Assembly (NCBI GenBank): GCA_026984935.1
Contig: JALSRD010000002.1
Span: 1-64,000 of the forward strand
Direction: 5' to 3'
Source of the DNA: Desulfobacterales bacterium
GTDB taxonomy: Bacteria > Desulfobacterota > Desulfobacteria > Desulfobacterales > JALSRD01
DNA length: 64,000 bases
Shown here: positions 8,662 through 60,771 of the stretch, one piece after another
Numbering within the stretch: the stretch's first letter is position 1
Layout of the letters: the number at the start of each line of letters is the position of its first letter
Position numbers and translations under genes: made by a program
The notes under the pieces: model-generated
Told to the model about the DNA's origin: nothing
Seen by the model: the letters and a program-made list of their open reading frames with translations, nothing else
Database searches by the model: none

Positions 8662-9579
8662 ATGCACATGTCCGAGCCCGCCGCCCCTTCTGCCGCCTTC
8701 CGCTCCGGTTTCATCGCCATCGCCGGCGCACCCAACGTGGGCAAATCCACGCTGCTCAACCGCATCCTGGGCGAAAAACTTTCGATCACCTCCAAGAAGC
8801 CGCAAACCACGCGCCACCGCATCCTCGGCATCCTGCACCGGCCGGCGGCCCAGCTGGTTTTCGTGGATACGCCCGGTGTGCACACCGCCGCCGGCCTGCT
8901 CAACCGCCGCATCGTCGATGCGGCCATGGCGGCCCTGGGCGATGCGGATGTGCTGCTGGCCATGATCGATGCCGCCAATCCCGATCCGGACGCGGAAAGG
9001 ATCCTGCTGGCCGCACTGGCCCGAAGCGGCCGGCCGGTGGTGCTGGCTATCAATAAAATCGACCTGTTGGCCGATAAAACAGACCTGTTGACACTCATCG
9101 ACAGATGGTCCGGCCGCCGCCTGTTCGAAGCCCTGGTACCCATCAGCGCGCGGCGCGGCACGCAGGTGCCGCGGCTGATTGAGGTCATGGAAGGCCTGCT
9201 GCCCGCCGGCCCGCCGCTGTTTCCGGCCGACAGCCTGACCGACCGCTCGCAGCGCTTTCTGGTGGCGGAGATAATCCGCGAAAAGGTCTTTCGCCTGACC
9301 GGCGCCGAGATCCCATACGCCAGCGCCGTAACCATCGACAAATTTTCACGCCGTGCGCAACGGCCCATCCATATCTTCGCTTCCATCCACGTCGAACGGG
9401 CCTCCCAGAAGGGCATCGTCATCGGCAAAAAAGGGGCCAAGCTGCGCCAGATCGGCGAAGCCGCGCGCAGGGACATCGAACGCCTGCTGCAATCACGGGT
9501 CTTCCTGAAGCTGCACGTCAAAGTCCAGAAAAACTGGAGCCGGGACAGCCGTGCGCTGCAACGCCTGGGCTACGAATGA
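8662..9579 (+). CDS. era: GTPase Era
   Basis: A 305-residue Era, an essential GTPase that binds the 3' end of 16S rRNA during 30S maturation. It shows the P-loop GAPNVGKS (22-29), effector region KPQTTRHRI, G3 DTPGVH, G4 NKID, and a C-terminal KH domain with the GxxG-type loop GKKGAKLRQIG. The ATG at 8662 lies behind AGGGAAAA; M3 is an alternative start. It is sandwiched between engB and an ATP-grasp gene with which it overlaps by four bases, an unusual partner (Era is more often beside rnc or recO). Confidence 0.96.
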   Translation: MHMSEPAAPSAAFRSGFIAIAGAPNVGKSTLLNRILGEKLSITSKKPQTTRHRILGILHRPAAQLVFVDTPGVHTAAGLLNRRIVDAAMAALGDADVLLAMIDAANPDPDAERILLAALARSGRPVVLAINKIDLLADKTDLLTLIDRWSGRRLFEALVPISARRGTQVPRLIEVMEGLLPAGPPLFPADSLTDRSQRFLVAEIIREKVFRLTGAEIPYASAVTIDKFSRRAQRPIHIFASIHVERASQKGIVIGKKGAKLRQIGEAARRDIERLLQSRVFLKLHVKVQKNWSRDSRALQRLGYE

Positions 9580-25043: not shown

Positions 25044-25391
25044 TCACTCAAAGCCTTCGCGCTGCAACAGTTCGCGGTACCAGCATGAAAAGTCGTACAT
25101 CCCGCGAAAACGCTCATCCTCGTTGATCAGGCCCAAAGCCATTTCGAGCGCACCTTGCTGATAGGCATCGGAATATTTTTCGCCAACATGGGCCTGCAGG
25201 AATTCCCGGACCAAGGTCTGCGTTGTACGCCGGCTCTTGTCCTTACGGATGTCGATAGGATCCTTGGGCTCCTGAAAGGGGTCCCAGTTCTGGTAGCCTT
25301 TTTTCAGAATGTGCCGCCTGCGCCGTGGAGACATGCTTTCCAAAACCGCCCGTTTGCGCGCTTCGGCTTCTTTCGCACTGAATTCATCCAC
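25044..25391 (-). CDS. Small conserved-looking hypothetical protein
   Basis: A 115-residue, strongly charged, soluble protein I do not recognise. The N-terminal part is basic (ARKRAVLESMSPRRRRHILKKGY), followed by WDPFQEPKDPIDIRKD and a helical C-terminal half ending in FSCWYREL. It starts with GTG at 25391 behind GGGGGAAG and overlaps the end of the YkgJ-family gene by eight bases, so the two are probably co-translated. An upstream ATG at 25442 would lie deep inside the preceding gene and is less likely. A role linked to its partner is only a guess. Confidence 0.6.
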   Translation of the reverse strand: MDEFSAKEAEARKRAVLESMSPRRRRHILKKGYQNWDPFQEPKDPIDIRKDKSRRTTQTLVREFLQAHVGEKYSDAYQQGALEMALGLINEDERFRGMYDFSCWYRELLQREGFE

Positions 25392-26064
25392 CGTTTTCTT
25401 CCCCCTTGCGGTTCTTATCGATCCCCAGGTACTGCGCATCATAGTCGGTCAACAATGCCATGGACAGCGGTACCAGTATCTCAGCCAGTTTCGGGTACCT
25501 GGATTGGATGCCGGCAACCAGCTGCTGCGAAATATCGTACAACTTTTGCTGGATGTTTCCAAGATTGACGGTCGGGTACGGCTCTCCGGGGACAAACGCC
25601 GACTTTCCGCAGGTGTGGCCCTTGCCGTCAATTGCGGTTGGAATGCCGTACAGCCTGCAGGTAATGGGGCGGTATTCGTACAATACGCACAAGTCATCGG
25701 CACCGAGCAGGGGACAGCGGGCCCGCTCGCTTGCCATTTTTTCCAGAATCTGGGCCTCACTCTGCTGTCCCTCCCTGAGTTTTTTATAAGCGTCCCTCTT
25801 CAGGCGGTAGATCTGGCGGTCAATCCGGCTGGCCGTTTCGAGAAGCTGCGCCTTGCGCTCGCCTGTAAATTTTTCGTGAAACCGGCGGTTCACATACAGG
25901 GCTTCGATCAGCGTCAAATCAAACAAGGCGTGGCAGCAGTCCGCGCACCCATGGTCGCAGCGTACACACTCAGGATAGGATTTTTTTACGCGATCGAATA
26001 CTTCGTCCGCCGTCCGGCACAAGGCTTCATAGGCTTTAATGTACTGATCAAGATCGTATTCCAT
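25384..26064 (-). CDS. YkgJ-family cysteine cluster protein
   Basis: A 226-residue protein of the YkgJ (UPF0153) family, which binds zinc or an iron-sulfur cluster through conserved cysteines. The N-terminal motif CVRCDHGCADCC and the later RCPLL, DLCVLYEYRPITCRLYG and TCGKS place at least eight cysteines in the family pattern. The biochemical role of the family is unsettled. The ATG at 26064 follows GGGAG. An upstream in-frame ATG at 26094 would place the parS palindrome inside the coding region and has no ribosome site. It follows mnmE on the same strand. Confidence 0.85.
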   Translation of the reverse strand: MEYDLDQYIKAYEALCRTADEVFDRVKKSYPECVRCDHGCADCCHALFDLTLIEALYVNRRFHEKFTGERKAQLLETASRIDRQIYRLKRDAYKKLREGQQSEAQILEKMASERARCPLLGADDLCVLYEYRPITCRLYGIPTAIDGKGHTCGKSAFVPGEPYPTVNLGNIQQKLYDISQQLVAGIQSRYPKLAEILVPLSMALLTDYDAQYLGIDKNRKGEENGG

Positions 26065-26077
26065 GATTGGCTCCCGT

Positions 26078-26093
26078 TGTTTCACGTGAAACA
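26078..26093. promoter_or_regulatory. parS centromere site (ParB-binding palindrome)
   Basis: The 16 bases are a perfect inverted repeat of the form TGTTTCACGTGAAACA, identical to the conserved bacterial parS consensus. It lies directly after the mnmE stop codon and ahead of the YkgJ-family gene, on the side of the rpmH-rnpA-yidC-jag-mnmE cluster where parAB and parS usually occur. ParB would load here and spread. No parA or parB gene is in the window. No second exact copy was found by eye. Confidence 0.9.
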
Positions 26094-27518
26094 TTATTTT
26101 CCGATACAGAATCGGCTGAAAAGCGCATCGATGGCCTCCTCGTTATAATGTTCACCGGTTATTTCCCCCAGATTTCTCAGTGCGGCCTCCAGATCGGCGG
26201 CGATGATTTCAGTCCACTCCTGATTCTGCATGCCGCGCAGCGCGTCCTGGCAGGCTCCGCGCGTTTTTTCCAGAATGTGCTTGTGCCGCAGGCCGGGGAC
26301 TATTTTTTGGCTGGCATCGGGAATCCGGCCATCTGTAACCTGCCCGACGATTTCTTCTTCGAGGAGTTCGATATGCTGCCCGTTGCGCGCAGAGATTTCG
26401 ACGCGTGGCAGGGAGTTTTCTAAACCCCGCAGGCTTTTTCGAAAAGGTGGTGTTTCAATATCGATTTTGTTGACCACCAGCAAAGCGCGGACCCCGCAGG
26501 CTGTGATGCGCTCGAACAGCCGGACGTCCCAATCGTTTAGCTCCCGGCTGGCGTCGATGAGTATCAGCACCAGGTCGGCGCCCGGTATTTTTTGCCAGGC
26601 TTTTGCCACACCGATGGTTTCGACCGGATCGCTGCTTTCGTGCAACCCGGCCGTGTCACTGAGCCGCACGCTCAACCCTTTGATCATAATCCGCTGTTCG
26701 ATGACATCACGTGTGGTCCCGGGCTGTGCGCTCACGATGCACCGATCGCCGCCTGCAAGCCGGTTCATCAGCGTCGATTTGCCGACATTCGGTGCGCCAG
26801 CGATGACAATGTCGATACCGCTGCGCAGGTACCCGAGCTCATGATGGTCCTGCACCAGCTTTGCCAGCGGATTCAGAACTTCCGCCTGAAGGCGCGCTGC
26901 GGCCGCCGTGCGATTTTCCGGGCCCTCGATCTCATCGCCAAAGTCGAGGCTGGCGTAGACATCCGAAAGTAATGATATCAAGACGCTACGCATGCGCTGG
27001 ATGCGTTCCCCGAGTTTTCCGCTAAGCTGCGCAGCGGCGATTTTAAGCGCGCTCGCCGATTCGGCACAGATCAGGTCGTTGACGGCTTCGGCGCGCGTCA
27101 GATCCATGCGTCCATTCAAAAAGGCGCGTTTGCTGAATTCTCCGGGACCGGCCAATTCGGCACCCTGCTGCAAAACCAGGTTCAGTACATGCTGCATCAG
27201 CAATGTGCCGGAATGCGAGTTGATTTCCACCACGTCCTCGCCGGTGTAGGAATGGGGCGCACGCATCCAGGAAAGAAGGACTTCGTCTACGACGTTTCCG
27301 TTGCGGGGGTCGACGATATGCCCGTGGTAGAGCCGGTGGGACAGAAACCCCGGATTTTTGACAACATCATTCTTGGCCGACTGCGCCGGACCGCCCGCCT
27401 TGCTTTTTCGGAAAAGCGCCGCCGCGATCTCCAGCGATCTTTTGCCGGATATTTTGATAATGCCGATGCCGCCGCTTCCCGGGGGGGTTGCGATGGCGGC
27501 GATGGTTGAGGCTGTCAT
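26094..27518 (-). CDS. mnmE: tRNA uridine-5-carboxymethylaminomethyl modification GTPase MnmE
   Basis: A 474-residue MnmE (TrmE). With MnmG it installs the carboxymethylaminomethyl group on the wobble uridine of several tRNAs. The N-terminal tetrahydrofolate-binding domain (IAAIATPPGSGGIGIIKISG) and helical domain are followed by an inserted G domain with P-loop GAPNVGKS, G3 DTAGL and G4 NKID. The C-terminal CIGK motif ends the protein, as expected. Its stop codon touches the parS site. It is the last gene of the origin-type cluster; a strong ribosome site is not visible before its ATG. Confidence 0.97.
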   Translation of the reverse strand: MTASTIAAIATPPGSGGIGIIKISGKRSLEIAAALFRKSKAGGPAQSAKNDVVKNPGFLSHRLYHGHIVDPRNGNVVDEVLLSWMRAPHSYTGEDVVEINSHSGTLLMQHVLNLVLQQGAELAGPGEFSKRAFLNGRMDLTRAEAVNDLICAESASALKIAAAQLSGKLGERIQRMRSVLISLLSDVYASLDFGDEIEGPENRTAAAARLQAEVLNPLAKLVQDHHELGYLRSGIDIVIAGAPNVGKSTLMNRLAGGDRCIVSAQPGTTRDVIEQRIMIKGLSVRLSDTAGLHESSDPVETIGVAKAWQKIPGADLVLILIDASRELNDWDVRLFERITACGVRALLVVNKIDIETPPFRKSLRGLENSLPRVEISARNGQHIELLEEEIVGQVTDGRIPDASQKIVPGLRHKHILEKTRGACQDALRGMQNQEWTEIIAADLEAALRNLGEITGEHYNEEAIDALFSRFCIGK

Positions 27519-27549: not shown

Positions 27550-28359
27550 TCAGCGCGCCGTTTTGCGCGGCGTTTCGGGACGATTCTTCTTACGGGGGAT
27601 GATGATCAGCTTGCGGACAAAGCCGTCGCCGACGCTCTGTGTGCGCAGGTTTTGGTCTTCTTTGAGCTCCAGGTGAACAATACGCCGTTCCTGTGGTTTA
27701 AGTTGCCCGATGGTCACCGGCTTGCCGTTTTTTTTGGCCTTGGCGGCCATGCGCCGTGCCAGGCTGCGCAGGTTTTTCCTGCGGTTTTCAAGATATCCAC
27801 CGACATCGATCTGCAGATGAACCCGGCTTTCCGCACGCCGATTGACAATTTTTTCCACAAGGTATTGTATGGCTTCCAATGTCTGCCCGTGTTTGCCGAT
27901 TAAAATGGCGGCATTTCCGCCCTGGATTCTGAACAGAATGTGGTCGCCGTTCAGGTGGCCGTCAATGCTGGCGTCGCTGGTGATGGCATCCACCATTTTT
28001 TGCAGGGCCTGACGCCCCAGGTCAAGCACGGCCGCGTCCGGCGATTGTTCTCCTGCCGCGCCATCTTCGGCGCGGGAAACGTTTTCCGCTGCAGGCGTTT
28101 CGCCGGCGTCGGTCTTCTTCTGATCAACGCGCCCCACAGCTGCCGGTGCAGCCTCTGGCACGGAATCTAGGCGTGCATCCCCGGGAGCGTGCTTCACCCG
28201 GATTCTGGCCTTACGCACACCCACAATGCCAAAAATTCCGCTGGAACCATGCGTGATGATTTCGTAAGTCAGCGCATCCCTTACAACATTGAGCCTGTCA
28301 CAGGCTTTCTGAATGGCGTCTTCAATGGTTTTGCCCTCAAATTCCTGGACCACCGACAT
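27550..28359 (-). CDS. jag: Jag/KhpB RNA-binding protein
   Basis: A 269-residue protein of the SpoIIIJ-associated (Jag/KhpB) family. It has an N-terminal Jag-N domain (EFEGKTIEDAIQKACDRL to about residue 50), a variable acidic and alanine-rich linker (55-120), a KH domain with IGKHGQTLEAIQYLV and a C-terminal R3H domain ending in KPQERRIVHLELKED and SVGDGFVRKLIIIPRKK. It binds RNA and is linked to cell-envelope control. The ATG at 28359 has the ideal AAGGAGGT site. It lies between yidC and mnmE, its normal place. Confidence 0.95.
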   Translation of the reverse strand: MSVVQEFEGKTIEDAIQKACDRLNVVRDALTYEIITHGSSGIFGIVGVRKARIRVKHAPGDARLDSVPEAAPAAVGRVDQKKTDAGETPAAENVSRAEDGAAGEQSPDAAVLDLGRQALQKMVDAITSDASIDGHLNGDHILFRIQGGNAAILIGKHGQTLEAIQYLVEKIVNRRAESRVHLQIDVGGYLENRRKNLRSLARRMAAKAKKNGKPVTIGQLKPQERRIVHLELKEDQNLRTQSVGDGFVRKLIIIPRKKNRPETPRKTAR

Positions 28360-28594
28360 GCCGGACCTCCTTGCGCTTTGACCTGGATTTGTGTTCAGGG
28401 CTCCGAAAAGACGCAACAACGCCGTTGCCCCGCGCAGATTATAGCTTGGCGGCGGAGTGCCTCGCGTTGGCGTTGTTGCATTCGCCTTGCACGCACGGGT
28501 CCACCGAACACTGACGCCGTTTCAGCAGGGCCGGAAGGCCGGCAAAAGATGGGGTTTTTCTATCCGGAACCCTGATCCCGGGATCGACCGCAGG

Positions 28595-30280
28595 TCACGC
28601 GTATTTCTTTTGAATGTAATACTGCTGTCCGATGGACAGAACATTGTTCACCAGCCAGTAGAGCACCAGGCCGGAGGAAAAGTTAATGAAAATAACGGTA
28701 AAGATGACCGGCATCATCATCATCATCTTTGCCTGCGACGGATCGCCGACCGGCGGCGACATTTTCTGCTGCCAGAACATGGTGGCGCCCATAATGATGG
28801 TCAGCACCGGAATACCATAAGGCGGCTGCATGAAAGGTATCGAAAAATGAAACCGCAACAGTCTGTCCGGCGCGGACAGGTCGTTTATCCACAGGAAAAA
28901 AGGTGCATGCCGCAACTCAATCGCCTGGTAAAGCATGCGGTAAAGCGCGAAAAACACCGGTATCTGCACAACCATCGGCAGGCACCCGCCCATGGGATTA
29001 ATCTTGTAGGTCTTGTAGAGCCCCATAAGCTCTTCGTTCATCTTCTTTTTGTCGCCCTTGTATTTCTGGCGGATCTCGGCCATCAACGGTTGCAGCTTTT
29101 TCATCTCGCTCATGGAGCGGTAACTTTTGGTGCCCAGCGGCCACAGCACAATTTTAATCAGAATGGTGAGAATGATAATGGCCACACCGTAGTTGGGGAT
29201 CACACGGTAAAGCTGATTCATCAGCCACAGGCAGGGCTTGGCCAGAATATCGAACCAGCCGAAGTTGACGGCTTTGTCCAGTTGATTGTCCAGTGCCCGC
29301 AAAACATGCAGACTTTTGGGGCCTACAAAGAGATTGAAATCAAATGTCTGCTGGGCGCCGGGCGCGATACTCAGGGCCGGGCTGATATAACGGCTTTCCA
29401 CCAGATTCTTGGGGTGCAGAAAAAGGCGCATGTCCGCCTGCGGCGCATCGGGGAAAACCAGGCTGGTCATGAAGTATTGGCTCTCAATGGCGAGCCACTG
29501 CACGTTGCCGCTCAAGGCGTGCTTTTTCTTGATCTTTCCCGTTGCGATCTGTTTGAGCTTCCCGTTGACATAGGCGCTGGCCCCCTCAAATCCGTAACGC
29601 GACCGCTTGGCGCTCAACCGATTGAAAAGCGACAGGTACAGATTATCCTCGATGGGCTGCGCCGATTGGTTTTTCAGGGTAACTTTCACCTGAATCAGGT
29701 AGCTTTTTGCATCAAAGCGGTAAGATTTTTCGACCACCAGGCCTTGTGGTGACCTCCATAAAAAATGGGTGACCTGCGAACCGGCTGCAACGTCAATGCG
29801 GTCCCGGGCTAGGGGGCTGTTAAATACGGCGCTTTTCAGGTCGATCTGTTTGTGGTGCAGCAGGCCGATCTGCGGGTTGCCTTCCGGCAGGCCGGGAGCC
29901 AGCACCGTCTTTAACGGAGAATTAGGATCTACTTTCTCTCGATACTTTTTCAATACGAAATCTTTGATGACCGCTCCCCGGGTGGACAGCTTGGCAATAT
30001 ACAGGGGTGTCTGAACTGTCAGCATGCGGGCGGGCAGCGCTGGTTCAGGCGGCACCTCTGCCGCCGGCGCCCGCACCGGCTCAGCCTGCTTCTCTGCATG
30101 CGACACTGTTTTTTCTACTTGCGGCGTTTTGGCAATTTTCTTGGGTGTCGTTGCCGGTTCTGTTTTTTCGGTGGGGTGAAGCGGTTTTTTCAGTGCATTT
30201 TTATCCACAAACATAAATTGCCATACGAGAAAAACAACAAATGACAATGCGATTGCAAGCACAACACGACCCATTTCCAT
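28595..30280 (-). CDS. yidC: Membrane protein insertase YidC
   Basis: A 561-residue Gram-negative type YidC that inserts and folds inner-membrane proteins alone or with SecYEG. It has the N-terminal anchor helix (about residues 5-21), a proline/lysine-rich linker, the large periplasmic beta domain (to about 340), and the conserved C-terminal core with the five-helix bundle. Core motifs are NYGVAIIILTILIKIVLWPLG, MSEMKKLQPLM and NPMGGCLPMVVQIPVFFALYRML, including the charged hairpin KYKGDKKKMNEELM. The ATG follows AGGAGAGAG. The usual upstream yidD is not present. Confidence 0.97.
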   Translation of the reverse strand: MEMGRVVLAIALSFVVFLVWQFMFVDKNALKKPLHPTEKTEPATTPKKIAKTPQVEKTVSHAEKQAEPVRAPAAEVPPEPALPARMLTVQTPLYIAKLSTRGAVIKDFVLKKYREKVDPNSPLKTVLAPGLPEGNPQIGLLHHKQIDLKSAVFNSPLARDRIDVAAGSQVTHFLWRSPQGLVVEKSYRFDAKSYLIQVKVTLKNQSAQPIEDNLYLSLFNRLSAKRSRYGFEGASAYVNGKLKQIATGKIKKKHALSGNVQWLAIESQYFMTSLVFPDAPQADMRLFLHPKNLVESRYISPALSIAPGAQQTFDFNLFVGPKSLHVLRALDNQLDKAVNFGWFDILAKPCLWLMNQLYRVIPNYGVAIIILTILIKIVLWPLGTKSYRSMSEMKKLQPLMAEIRQKYKGDKKKMNEELMGLYKTYKINPMGGCLPMVVQIPVFFALYRMLYQAIELRHAPFFLWINDLSAPDRLLRFHFSIPFMQPPYGIPVLTIIMGATMFWQQKMSPPVGDPSQAKMMMMMPVIFTVIFINFSSGLVLYWLVNNVLSIGQQYYIQKKYA

Positions 30281-30517: not shown

Positions 30518-30928
30518 TTATCGCACGGCCTTCCGACTGGCGGCACGCCCGCTCGACCGTGCGTCGCATGTATCCGTCGAATTGGATTCGGGCAGTTGGT
30601 TGAATAGTTCTAGCAGGGAAGAAAAAATACGGTGGGAGTTCAGGCTTCCGGTATGCTTTTTGGCAATAACATAAACATCGAAGCATCCCTTCCACTGTGC
30701 ATGGTTCAGCCTGAAAAATTCGCGCACCAGCCGCTTGACCCGATTCCTGACGACCGCATTGCCCACCTTGCGGGAAACAGCCACTCCCAACCGCCAGCGC
30801 CTGGCCGAGCTGGCCTGCACGAAGGCGATAAAATCGACATTCTGAATTTTTTTCCCCGTTTCCGCCAGCCGTAAAAAGTCAGCTCGTTTTAAAATGCGGT
30901 CTGCTTTAGGGAACCGGAAGCCGCCCAA
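30518..30928 (-). CDS. rnpA: Ribonuclease P protein component
   Basis: A 136-residue RnpA that assists the RNase P RNA in 5' maturation of tRNA. The conserved basic core is present: FPKADRILKRADFLRL, the central RRWRLGVAVSRKVGNAVVRNRVKRLVREFFR motif and DVYVIAKK. The start is a TTG codon at 30928, behind AAGG, giving the typical MGxFxFPK-like N-terminus. The last 25 residues are an unusual polar tail. It lies 57 bases after rpmH in the usual order. Confidence 0.93.
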   Translation of the reverse strand: MGGFRFPKADRILKRADFLRLAETGKKIQNVDFIAFVQASSARRWRLGVAVSRKVGNAVVRNRVKRLVREFFRLNHAQWKGCFDVYVIAKKHTGSLNSHRIFSSLLELFNQLPESNSTDTCDARSSGRAASRKAVR

Positions 30929-55697: not shown

Positions 55698-58184
<2,487 letters not shown>

Positions 58185-59303
58185 TTATATTCGCATGGGC
58201 ATCACGACGCTCAGGTAGCTCTTGTCCTGCGCGCCCTGAATGTAGCAGGGTTTTTCGTTGTTCTTGATGCTGACAATCACCTGGTCATCTTCAATGACAT
58301 TGAGTGAATCGATAAAAAAGCGTGGGTTGAAGGCTGCTTCCACGGGATCACCCGTAAAACCGATAGGCATGTCCTCCTTGGATTCGCCAATTTCCGGATT
58401 CGTGGAGTTGATCAGCAGAACATCATCTTTAAAATTAAATATCACACACTTATAGCTATCCGTGGAGAGAATGGACATGCGTTTCAACATCATCAAAAAC
58501 AAATTTCGATCCATAACGATTTCGGTATAGCCGGATTGATCGACAATCTCGCTGTAGTCCGGAAATTCTCCTTCCAGCAGGCGAATCACTAAAGTTTCCT
58601 TTTCCTTTTTCACCACCAGGTGATTGTCCATGAACCCCATCTGCACGAACTCGTCGCCTTCCAGAAATTTTCCGACTTCAACCAACTCCTTTTTGGAAAT
58701 CAGCACCCCTTTTTCAAAGGGAACCTGCATTTCTTCTTTGAGTGCATAATCGACTTTGGACAAACGGCTGCCGTCTGTTGAAACCATTCGGATATAGTGT
58801 TTGTCGCCTTGTCGCAGGCATTCGAAAAAAACACCGATAACGTGGGCCCGTTTATCATCGCCGGCACCGGTGATAACCACGGACCGTTCAATCATTTTCT
58901 TAAGTGCGGAAGACTTCATTTCAAAAAAGGGAATATCCTGGATTTCCGGGTTGCCGGGAAAATCTTCCGGATTCATACCGACAATATGATAGAGCACTTT
59001 TTCGTTGCCGATCTCGATCCAGTGATTTTCAAGCTCATTGATTCGGATTTCTTCACTGGGAAAATCTCTTACAATTTCAAAAAGTTTCTTGGCATTAATC
59101 ACCACCATACCTTCGGAGCGCACTTTTGCGGTAAAATGTCCCTCATACCCGGTTTCAAGATCGGTTGCCGCCAGTACGACGCCGGTATCGCTGGTTTTCA
59201 TCAGCAGGGACGATGTAATGGCCAGGCTGCTCTTTCTGCCGGTCAACCCCTGTATCTTGGACAATACATCCAAAAAATCGCTTCGTTTGATGGCAATGTT
59301 CAT
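58185..59303 (-). CDS. dnaN: DNA polymerase III beta subunit (sliding clamp)
   Basis: A 372-residue DnaN, the ring clamp that gives the replicative polymerase its processivity. The three repeated clamp domains are recognisable by MNIAIKRSDFLDVLSKIQGLTGRKSSLAI, NPEDFPGNPE, EFPDYSEIVD and the C-terminal SYLSVVMPMRI. The length is typical. ATG at 59303 follows GAGGT; a GTG one codon earlier is an alternative. It is upstream of gyrB on the minus strand. No dnaA gene is present before it; instead two RdgC-like genes lie upstream. Confidence 0.97.
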   Translation of the reverse strand: MNIAIKRSDFLDVLSKIQGLTGRKSSLAITSSLLMKTSDTGVVLAATDLETGYEGHFTAKVRSEGMVVINAKKLFEIVRDFPSEEIRINELENHWIEIGNEKVLYHIVGMNPEDFPGNPEIQDIPFFEMKSSALKKMIERSVVITGAGDDKRAHVIGVFFECLRQGDKHYIRMVSTDGSRLSKVDYALKEEMQVPFEKGVLISKKELVEVGKFLEGDEFVQMGFMDNHLVVKKEKETLVIRLLEGEFPDYSEIVDQSGYTEIVMDRNLFLMMLKRMSILSTDSYKCVIFNFKDDVLLINSTNPEIGESKEDMPIGFTGDPVEAAFNPRFFIDSLNVIEDDQVIVSIKNNEKPCYIQGAQDKSYLSVVMPMRI

Positions 59304-59343
59304 CACAACCTCTTTTTTCTTTTTTTATTTAAAAACAAGGGAG

Positions 59344-59371
59344 ATTATAATGGCTTGTCAATAAATCCAAT
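59344..59371 (-). promoter_or_regulatory. Candidate dnaN promoter
   Basis: The minus strand carries a consensus TATAAT (59344-59349). TTGGAT (59365-59370) or ATTGGA (59366-59371) lies 15 to 16 bases upstream. The region is AT-rich, but no cluster of DnaA boxes was seen. Confidence 0.5.
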
Positions 59372-59482
59372 AAGCTTTCAATACTGTGTTTTAAAAAGAA
59401 AAAAAGATTCAATTCTGATTCCATAAGAAAAGGCTTCCGCCATTGATAAAGGCCTGTTTGAAAACATGCCGTGCAAGTATGT

Positions 59483-59502
59483 CAATAACCGCAGGGTTAT
59501 TG
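59483..59502. other. Perfect 8-bp hairpin upstream of dnaN
   Basis: CAATAACC (59483-59490) and GGTTATTG (59495-59502) enclose GCAG. It lies 20 bases after the stop of the RdgC-like operon. On the plus strand it is followed by TATTTTTG. It may terminate the RdgC unit or serve as a binding site. Confidence 0.4.
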
Positions 59503-59521
59503 TATTTTTGTAAACGCGTTA

Positions 59522-60040
59522 TCAACGGTCCATCCAGCGACTGATCTGCGGGCGTGTTTTGGTTTCCCAGGCATCCGACAGGCGCTCTTTGACGAAGACT
59601 TGAAAAAGCGTTTCGATTTTTGCAATGATTTGCTCGCAAAGATAAATCCGGTTCAAGGCGGCGCCCTCGAGATCTTCTTTGGTTTCAACGAGCTCGGTTT
59701 CCGGAAAACTGAGGTTGGATATGGCCAGGCTCTCGGCTTTGAGGGTAAAACGCCATTTCAGGTTTGCCTGGCTGTAAGTAAGGTTGGCCTCGGAAACCCC
59801 GGCGCCCTTGCGAAGGGCGATGAAGGCCTCTTCAAAGCCGGCGTCATCTCCCTTGATGGTGATGGTTTCCAGTCCCTCGCGGGATCGGTTTTCCAAAACG
59901 ATGCGGTTTCCCATCTGAAAGACGCCATCGTCCGGTGAATCCGTTTCGTGGTTCTGGGTGTCGATTCGATGCCAAAGCCATGTTAAAAATTCGTATCCCA
60001 AAAATTTATAGCGGTTATAGGCGACTGCCAGATCAAGCAT
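59522..60040 (-). CDS. RdgC-like protein, C-terminal half (separate gene)
   Basis: A 172-residue protein whose N-terminus contains FLGYEFLTWLWHRID, matching the GxEFLTWLW stretch in RdgC-family proteins, followed by an acidic and beta-rich part (VLENRSREGLETITIKGDDAGFEEAFIALRKGAGV) typical of the RdgC C-terminal half. Together with the preceding gene it would make a complete RdgC. It starts with its own ATG, overlapping the upstream stop by eight bases, so it appears a translationally coupled separate polypeptide rather than a simple frameshift. RdgC binds DNA and limits RecA. Assignment rests on pattern recognition. Confidence 0.65.
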   Translation of the reverse strand: MLDLAVAYNRYKFLGYEFLTWLWHRIDTQNHETDSPDDGVFQMGNRIVLENRSREGLETITIKGDDAGFEEAFIALRKGAGVSEANLTYSQANLKWRFTLKAESLAISNLSFPETELVETKEDLEGAALNRIYLCEQIIAKIETLFQVFVKERLSDAWETKTRPQISRWMDR

Positions 60041-60659
60041 GCGACCCCTCCCGAAAAGAAACCGGCGAAAGTTGGAGCAGCCTGTCTTGCTCTGAATGAC
60101 TGAGTTCCGATGCCAGTACCGCCTGGGTATAGGGAAAGAGCCTGACCAGCGACAGGTTGAAGGACTTTAAAAACAGGGCTTCCAATTCTTCATTGGCCGA
60201 TTTTAGGGTCGAAAAGAGCCAGAGGCGTTCCTTTTCATAGTCCCATATCAGATCGTAGATATTGGGGGTGGCCGGAATCTGGCGGCAAAGGTTCTGCACG
60301 ATCTGTTCTTTCAGCAGTTTTTTTTCGTTACTGGAAAGAAAACCGCGGCCGTTTTCACGTTTGCGTTTCTCGATTTCGAGACTGCAATGTTTGCGGATGG
60401 TTTTGGCCGCAAGCGTTTTTTTGTCGATTCGAAGGGCAAACAGAAAATACGTACCGATCATAAAGGAAGATCCGCGGAAGTCGGGCTGAAAGGGCGTCTG
60501 CCAGGATGTCCAGCCGGCACTTTTTTCATCAGTCTGCTGATCAATTTCCATAATACAGTTTTTACGAAGGCCCGTGAAAACGGATTCCACCGCTGAAGAT
60601 TCAAATTTACCGTTTACTTTGTAGCGGCTGACCGATACGCTGGAAGACAGCAATCCCAT
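60033..60659 (-). CDS. RdgC-like protein, N-terminal half (separate gene)
   Basis: A 208-residue protein resembling the first two-thirds of RdgC: a beta N-terminus (MGLLSSSVSVSRYKVNG), FMIGTYFLFALRIDKKTLAAKTIRKHCSLEIEKRKRE, then FLSSNEKKLLKEQIVQNLCRQIPATPNIYDLIWDYEKERLWLFST, which parallels the KDEVLHSLLPRAF and IDTVNGLI region of E. coli RdgC. It overlaps the following gene by eight bases. It lies divergent from the EndoQ-UvrD gene, with a 112-base AT-rich spacer that could hold promoters for both. Confidence 0.7.
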   Translation of the reverse strand: MGLLSSSVSVSRYKVNGKFESSAVESVFTGLRKNCIMEIDQQTDEKSAGWTSWQTPFQPDFRGSSFMIGTYFLFALRIDKKTLAAKTIRKHCSLEIEKRKRENGRGFLSSNEKKLLKEQIVQNLCRQIPATPNIYDLIWDYEKERLWLFSTLKSANEELEALFLKSFNLSLVRLFPYTQAVLASELSHSEQDRLLQLSPVSFREGSHA

Positions 60660-60771
60660 GCGGCAACCCCCGTTATTTTAAATAGTTTTATTAAATTCCG
60701 ACTATACGCCGTTTCGGTCAAATAAACAAGTAAATATTTATTATTAAAGCAATAAAAAGACAGCTTGACCC

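Follow-up and report, generated by a model that had tools for sequence, protein, structure and literature searches.

The window is a stretch of 64,000 nucleotides, C2:1-64000, from one contig of a Desulfobacterales draft genome (G000; 3,888,041 bases in 112 contigs, 99.45% complete and 0.22% contaminated). A scan of the window located TGTTTCACGTGAAACA, a perfect palindrome with 0 mismatches, at 26078-26093. The TAA stop codon of mnmE, which encodes a tRNA modification GTPase on the minus strand (26094-27518; TIGR00450 match above cut-off), directly abuts the palindrome, as the initial annotation had described. The window holds no second match at up to three mismatches, a tolerance at which shuffled sequence averages 0.14 matches. 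In the whole draft genome, the palindrome is the sole match at up to two mismatches and the backwards control pattern has 0, so there are not the many scattered copies that could have made this one a chance match. The 16-bp parS palindrome is given as mainly TGTTNCACGTGAAACA in an excerpt of a review (PMC7022226), and the window site is a 16-bp parS palindrome of the kind found in chromosomal ParABS systems. From its uniqueness in the genome and the position kept in relatives, we annotate 26078-26093 as parS, a putative ParB-loading centromere.

All genes described around the site are on the minus strand. Beyond parS lie a ykgJ-type CxxCxxCC gene (25384-26094 as the longest ORF; PF03692, 27.9 bits) and a 132-aa gene of unknown function without a Pfam match (25044-25442), which is conserved beside ykgJ in 52 of the 53 parS loci having ykgJ. 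On the other side of mnmE are jag (KhpB; 27550-28419; Pfam Jag_N, KH, and R3H), an ORF that we take to be yidC from its translation and place (28595-30280), and an ORF whose translation reads as rnpA (30518-30928). Further along the contig are an ORF recognized by its translation as gyrB (55698-58142) and dnaN (58185-59306; TIGR00663 match at C2:58191-59303). Neither parA nor parB was found within about 1.5 kb of parS. The proposal that the parAB neighbors were replaced is thus borne out in that the ykgJ-type and 132-aa genes stand next to the site without parAB, but direct displacement by ykgJ is not required, as parAB would have been separated from that position by mnmG and rsmG.

GC skew is below zero in each of the first 15 four-kb bins of C2 (up to 60 kb) and above zero in 8 of the 9 bins beyond, with the turn at gyrB-dnaN (55698-59306), about 33 kb from parS. 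The lowest G+C content in a 500-base profile lies at 59001-59500. On the basis of the skew turn in 4-kb bins and the 500-base profile, we place the putative oriC in the zone upstream of dnaN (59307-60771). Since the skew turns at dnaN-gyrB, parS is probably origin-proximal, as had been proposed and as is usual for ParABS systems. Scans for DnaA boxes returned no cluster at the putative origin, and the three perfect boxes (28885, 30201, and 57985) all lie inside genes. In this genome dnaA, like parAB, is away from dnaN: it occupies 31859-33178 of contig C106, which also carries parAB and on which 22 of 25 bins have negative skew and no turn is seen. As bounded from the contig ends (C2, 95,098 bases; C106, 101,917 bases), at least about 74 kb separate parS from parAB. 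The skew of the sister genome G053 likewise switches from negative to positive across dnaN, with the positive part being the final ~3.5 kb of the contig. Two genes lie upstream of dnaN at the skew turn of C2 (59522-60659), one matching RdgC (PF04381) and the other without a Pfam match; a similar RdgC-like gene was seen by eye upstream of dnaN in G053 (L220:5832-6512).

The genome encodes a single strong ParB (C106:53484-54008; TIGR00180, 185.9 bits), and the suspicion that a genome with this site might have no parB is thereby removed. parA (L004:10146-10934; PF13614, 218.6 bits) is directly upstream of parB, and Smc is encoded on contig C61 (TIGR02168, 999.4 bits). ParB comprises ParB_N (PF02195), HTH_ParB (PF17762), and ParB_C (PF23552), with the N-terminal, HTH, and C-terminal dimer regions all present, and the solved proteins that match it best are named ParB family protein, Spo0J, ParB, and Noc. 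Its translation contains GERR, a motif with a role involving CTP. The parS contacts of Caulobacter ParB are listed in an excerpt of PMC7383237 as Q162, G170, K171, S172, R173, N178, G201, and R204, and all eight of the residues listed there are identical in our ParB, with positions counted on the premise that the GKSR motif corresponds to Caulobacter G170-R173 and not from an alignment of the Caulobacter sequence itself. R173 and G201 are invariant across the 30 rows of the ParB alignment (27 distinct genomes). With a canonical ParB and matching parS-contact residues in the genome, the palindrome is likely a ParB-loading site, in agreement with the initial annotation. Noc, a ParB-like protein, has an NBS site described as near-identical to parS in an excerpt of PMC7333895. 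Unlike Noc, which has Q173, K179, K184, and R201, our ParB has R173, M179, Q184, and G201 at these four positions, and we regard it as ParB-type and reject its membership in the Noc/NBS system.

Some further ParB-like sequences deserve mention. The contact residue R204 is Lys in the ParB of G010, G116, G076, and G145 (L243-L246), which belong to a single family (f11), and all four genomes carry a TGTTCC...GGAACA-type site. In G000, a lone ParB-like gene of 327 aa (C41:192228-193211; L005:7229-8212) came into consideration as a second partner of the site; it scores 31.7 bits, below the family cut-off, and has no Pfam match, and the gene beside it is presumably purC. The best ParB match of G049 (C1:192020-192535) has an in-frame TAG and may reflect a sequencing error or a decayed gene.

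Conservation of the site was followed in 146 genomes of the order. TGTTTCACGTGAAACA is present at up to one mismatch in 104 of them, and the backwards control in 4. In 76 of the 104, parS lies 0-200 bp 3' of the mnmE match end, and 41 of these share an offset of 4. The remaining 42 genomes might have been taken to be without parS, which is wrong for 20: these hold a TGTTYCACGTGRAACA-type site at up to one mismatch. The background of this looser Y/R pattern is sizeable, its control matching 7 of the 42. The variant site is within 108 bp 3' of mnmE in 17 of the 20 genomes, a proximity that would not be expected by chance. Combined, a parS-like site is found in 124 of 146 genomes and just 3' of mnmE (up to 200 bp) in 93, which represent at least 46 families; no site of either type was detected in 22, of which 16 are under 90% complete and 6 at least 90%. 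Both arms are changed (T to C and A to G; TGTTCCACGTGGAACA or close) in 15 of the 20 variant genomes, from 9 families, and such a paired change is as expected if the site is read by a dimer. A change in one arm only occurs in the other five (G004, G022, G073, G092, and G113) and in at least four genomes of the first set (G045, G046, G059, and G067).

Of the 124 site-bearing genomes, 81 had their parS locus read for gene content, over a span of up to about 1.5 kb to either side. mnmE is present in 55 of these loci, ykgJ in 53, and both in 49, and parA or parB in none of the 81 within that range. The initial annotation had concluded that the locus was rearranged while the site stayed. The evidence supports a site that stayed while parAB left, but with the site just 3' of mnmE in so many families, this is not a rearrangement of this locus alone.

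Linkage to the replication and segregation genes was counted in the 104-genome set, using the strongest gene matches and distances that were not made circular. parS and mnmE are within 20 kb in 86 of the 101 genomes with both. dnaN is on the parS contig in 51 of 97 genomes and within 60 kb of the site in 43, in contrast to dnaA, which shares a contig with parS in 7 of 96 and never lies within 60 kb. Similarly, parB is on the parS contig in 11 of 102 genomes and within 60 kb only in G018 (15.7 kb). The remaining 91 genomes have parS and parB on different contigs. The contrast between dnaN on the one hand and parB and dnaA on the other is informative since contigs limit all pairs alike.

Near-complete chromosomes allow these distances to be related to the skew. 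In G070 (3.94 Mb), the skew turns at 102-103 kb, at dnaN (103,072), with parS at 117,510 and dnaA at 62; parB (1,940,862) is beside the opposite skew turn, between 1.95 and 2.1 Mb, and thus near the terminus. The skew of G070 is weak and mixed from 20 to 80 kb and slightly negative again from 120 to 140 kb. In G010 (4.46 Mb), positive skew extends from base 1 to 2.1 Mb and mostly negative skew from 2.4 Mb to the end of the contig, which would place the origin near the contig join if the chromosome is circular, 35 kb from dnaN (4,419,981). Variant parS sites of G010 are at 4,359,984, beside mnmE, and at 4,265,493, with another of one mismatch at 4,339,774, while parB is at 1,186,606 and dnaA at 1,231,719. 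In the single-contig chromosomes with clean skew (n = 2), parS is near the origin and parAB are 1.2 and 1.8 Mb away. G116 (6.91 Mb) has a local skew turn at dnaN (277,164), a one-mismatch variant parS at 381,424, and dnaA at 2,866,401; its parB (6,862,258) is ~0.3 Mb from the local turn if the chromosome is circular. The origin call in G116 is weaker because the samples are mostly positive to 5.6 Mb, so that the arms would be very uneven. Accordingly, parAB are not near the origin in G070 and G010, and they are in G116 if the local turn is the origin.

Two near-complete chromosomes run counter to this arrangement. parS and dnaN are 998 kb apart in G066, and in G049 the distance is ~0.6 Mb if the chromosome is circular. 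The coarsely sampled skew of G049, G054, and G066 has no readable single minimum, G061 gives no clear turn, and G128, sampled only around dnaN, has no skew turn there; we count none of these five as support. The sole one-mismatch site of G114, at a distance of 0.48 Mb from mnmE, may be a chance match. Across the order, the origin (dnaN-gyrB) and parS (mnmE) seem to be mostly together, with dnaA and parAB unlinked, in at least one chromosome out to the terminus, and linkage of parAB to parS would then be dispensable. We lean toward this order-wide reading, tempered by the different contigs on which parS and parB mostly lie and by the uneven skew arms of G116.

Other explanations of the palindrome itself have to be weighed. 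Placed between two genes, where it could control ykgJ, the site might belong to another transcription factor that shares the parS sequence by chance. This is very unlikely, though the least so of the alternatives, since the full 16-bp parS is present in one to four copies per genome, mostly beside one gene, in genomes such as ours in which a ParB with matching contact residues exists; moreover, G139 keeps the variant 3' of mnmE, at ~20 kb from dnaN, and the 4.3 kb fetched there contain no ykgJ match. The palindrome might also be preserved for coding reasons, as the N-terminus of YkgJ (MFHVKQ), or as a device of translational coupling between mnmE and ykgJ. In the window, the ATG of parS and the mnmE stop codon form TAATG and open the ykgJ frame, and the longest ykgJ ORF begins inside parS (MFHVKQ...), with an alternative ATG at 26064. 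At the locus L071, a TTG takes the place of this ATG and is likewise in frame, without interruption in the stretch shown. However, 2 of the 53 ykgJ loci, the window among them, have the parS ATG open and in the ykgJ frame, and in the sister genome G053 two perfect parS copies, 119 bases apart, lie between the mnmE ORF and that of ykgJ. The both-arm changes, furthermore, preserve the palindrome yet alter the would-be peptide. We thus reject the palindrome as a coding element, an explanation that we find highly improbable, and the overlap of parS with the ykgJ ORF in the window looks incidental in light of the two in-frame loci and the two intergenic copies of G053.

The separation of parS from parAB can be questioned as well. 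dnaA and oriC are adjacent in many bacteria, and with perfect DnaA boxes unclustered at dnaN, the true origin could be at dnaA on C106 and parS a stranded, non-working relic. Against this, the skew of C2 turns at dnaN, whereas C106 has no turn; a turn at dnaN is also found in G070 and, as a local one, in G116 and G053. Nor would a relic be expected to keep its palindromic form next to mnmE across at least 46 families, and we give this explanation as little credence as the coding one. Least probable of all is that the separation is an artifact, with C106 being foreign or contigs wrongly split. The 112-contig state of the draft leaves room for such errors, but completeness is high and contamination low, and near-complete chromosomes have the same separation. 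In G053, parAB are also on a contig without a parS site, beside a gene that matches the neighbor of our parAB with 63% identity, which argues against a binning error.

The arrangement that may have preceded the present one can be traced in named relatives. From an mnmE alignment, 80 named mnmE loci were compiled, with fetched stretches of up to 10 kb on each side; the YkgJ protein as a query for named close relatives yielded no loci. mnmG, parA, and parB are all in the fetched stretch in 28 of the 80 loci, all Bacillota by title, and 26 of these 28 have parS at up to one mismatch. The Bacillota ParABS cluster (mnmE-mnmG-rsmG-parA-parB) thus resembles our system in the same 16-bp parS, in ParA and ParB, and in its place on the mnmE side of the origin. 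It differs in that parS lies in or beside the parAB cluster, whereas mnmG, rsmG, and parAB are absent from our locus and parAB are unlinked. Two loci have a different composition. In L135 (Deltaproteobacteria bacterium), the order is dnaA-like, dnaN, rnpA-like, yidC-like, mnmE, parS (at +8 of mnmE, one mismatch), mnmG, and rsmG, where we take the dnaA-, rnpA-, and yidC-like genes to be such from their translations. L185 (Proteobacteria bacterium) has mnmE, a perfect variant parS at +51, mnmG, and rsmG. The 10 kb downstream revealed parAB in neither locus. Both are like our locus in having parS directly 3' of mnmE and unlike it in that mnmG and rsmG still follow and, in L135, the dnaA-like gene still adjoins dnaN. 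The order mnmE-parS-mnmG-rsmG in L135 and L185 suggests that parS was already 3' of mnmE before mnmG and rsmG departed. Among the five named mnmE-ykgJ relatives, L124 and L127 carry parS at +4, and L125 (Desulfobacula), L128 (Desulfobacter), and L136 (Desulfococcaceae) have no site at up to two mismatches in the fetched stretch. In L185, a second perfect parS variant (8807-8822) abuts the rsmG stop codon, mirroring the copy 3' of mnmE.

The best reading of the window site, judged from sequence, is an ordinary ParB-loading centromere whose trans-acting genes are unlinked. ParB, produced from the parA-parB operon elsewhere in the genome, would load at the single parS and spread over the origin side (dnaN-gyrB ... 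rnpA-yidC-jag-mnmE), where it would engage ParA and Smc, as ParB does elsewhere among ParABS systems, and thereby lead to separation of the origins. We consider that an older cluster of the kind mnmE-parS-mnmG-rsmG-parA-parB, with parS 3' of mnmE, may have lost parAB together with mnmG and rsmG from the mnmE locus, in this order of bacteria, and that dnaA may have left the dnaN-gyrB cluster, while the cis-acting parS would mostly have stayed with mnmE near the origin. To this full account, with a single recognized parS, ParB loading from distant parAB, and a site that stayed near the origin with mnmE, we assign a probability of about 0.86.

The components of this system are known, and their arrangement across an order is new. 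We found no description of it in titles and the openings of abstracts, a scope outside which the parS survey of Livny et al. 2007 lies. According to an excerpt of the review PMC7022226, par operons and the majority of parS sites lie together in the origin domain. If our order-wide reading is correct, selection would act on the position of parS and not on that of the parAB genes, and parAB-parS linkage, usually taken as a hallmark, could be dispensed with. In Bacillus subtilis, the control of initiation by ParA is kept after parS is separated from oriC, as stated in an excerpt of PMC7614844; the separation described there concerns the site and not the genes. If the order keeps parS near the origin while parAB wander, the placement of the site and the placement of the genes have already been separated by nature, and one can ask whether the dosage of parAB or their distance from the origin affects segregation. 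Methods that locate origins by means of dnaA could also be misled by an origin that has dnaN but not dnaA beside it.

Genomes with a site have one to four parS-like copies, mostly beside mnmE. A single parS near oriC is said to suffice in an excerpt of PMC7022226, and the chromosome of Xanthomonas campestris has a single parS according to an excerpt of PMC7333895. Our genome is like that of X. campestris in that one parS would serve the chromosome, a comparison limited to the number of parS sites. Where several copies occur, some form tandem groups with a spacing of ~38-48 bp, as in G076 (C277:66030-66159; four copies, 38 bp) and in L010 and L011 (1501-1594). Further tandem groups are found at G044:C297:13072-13126 and G090:C16:159410-159473, and these groups suggest local multiplication of the site.
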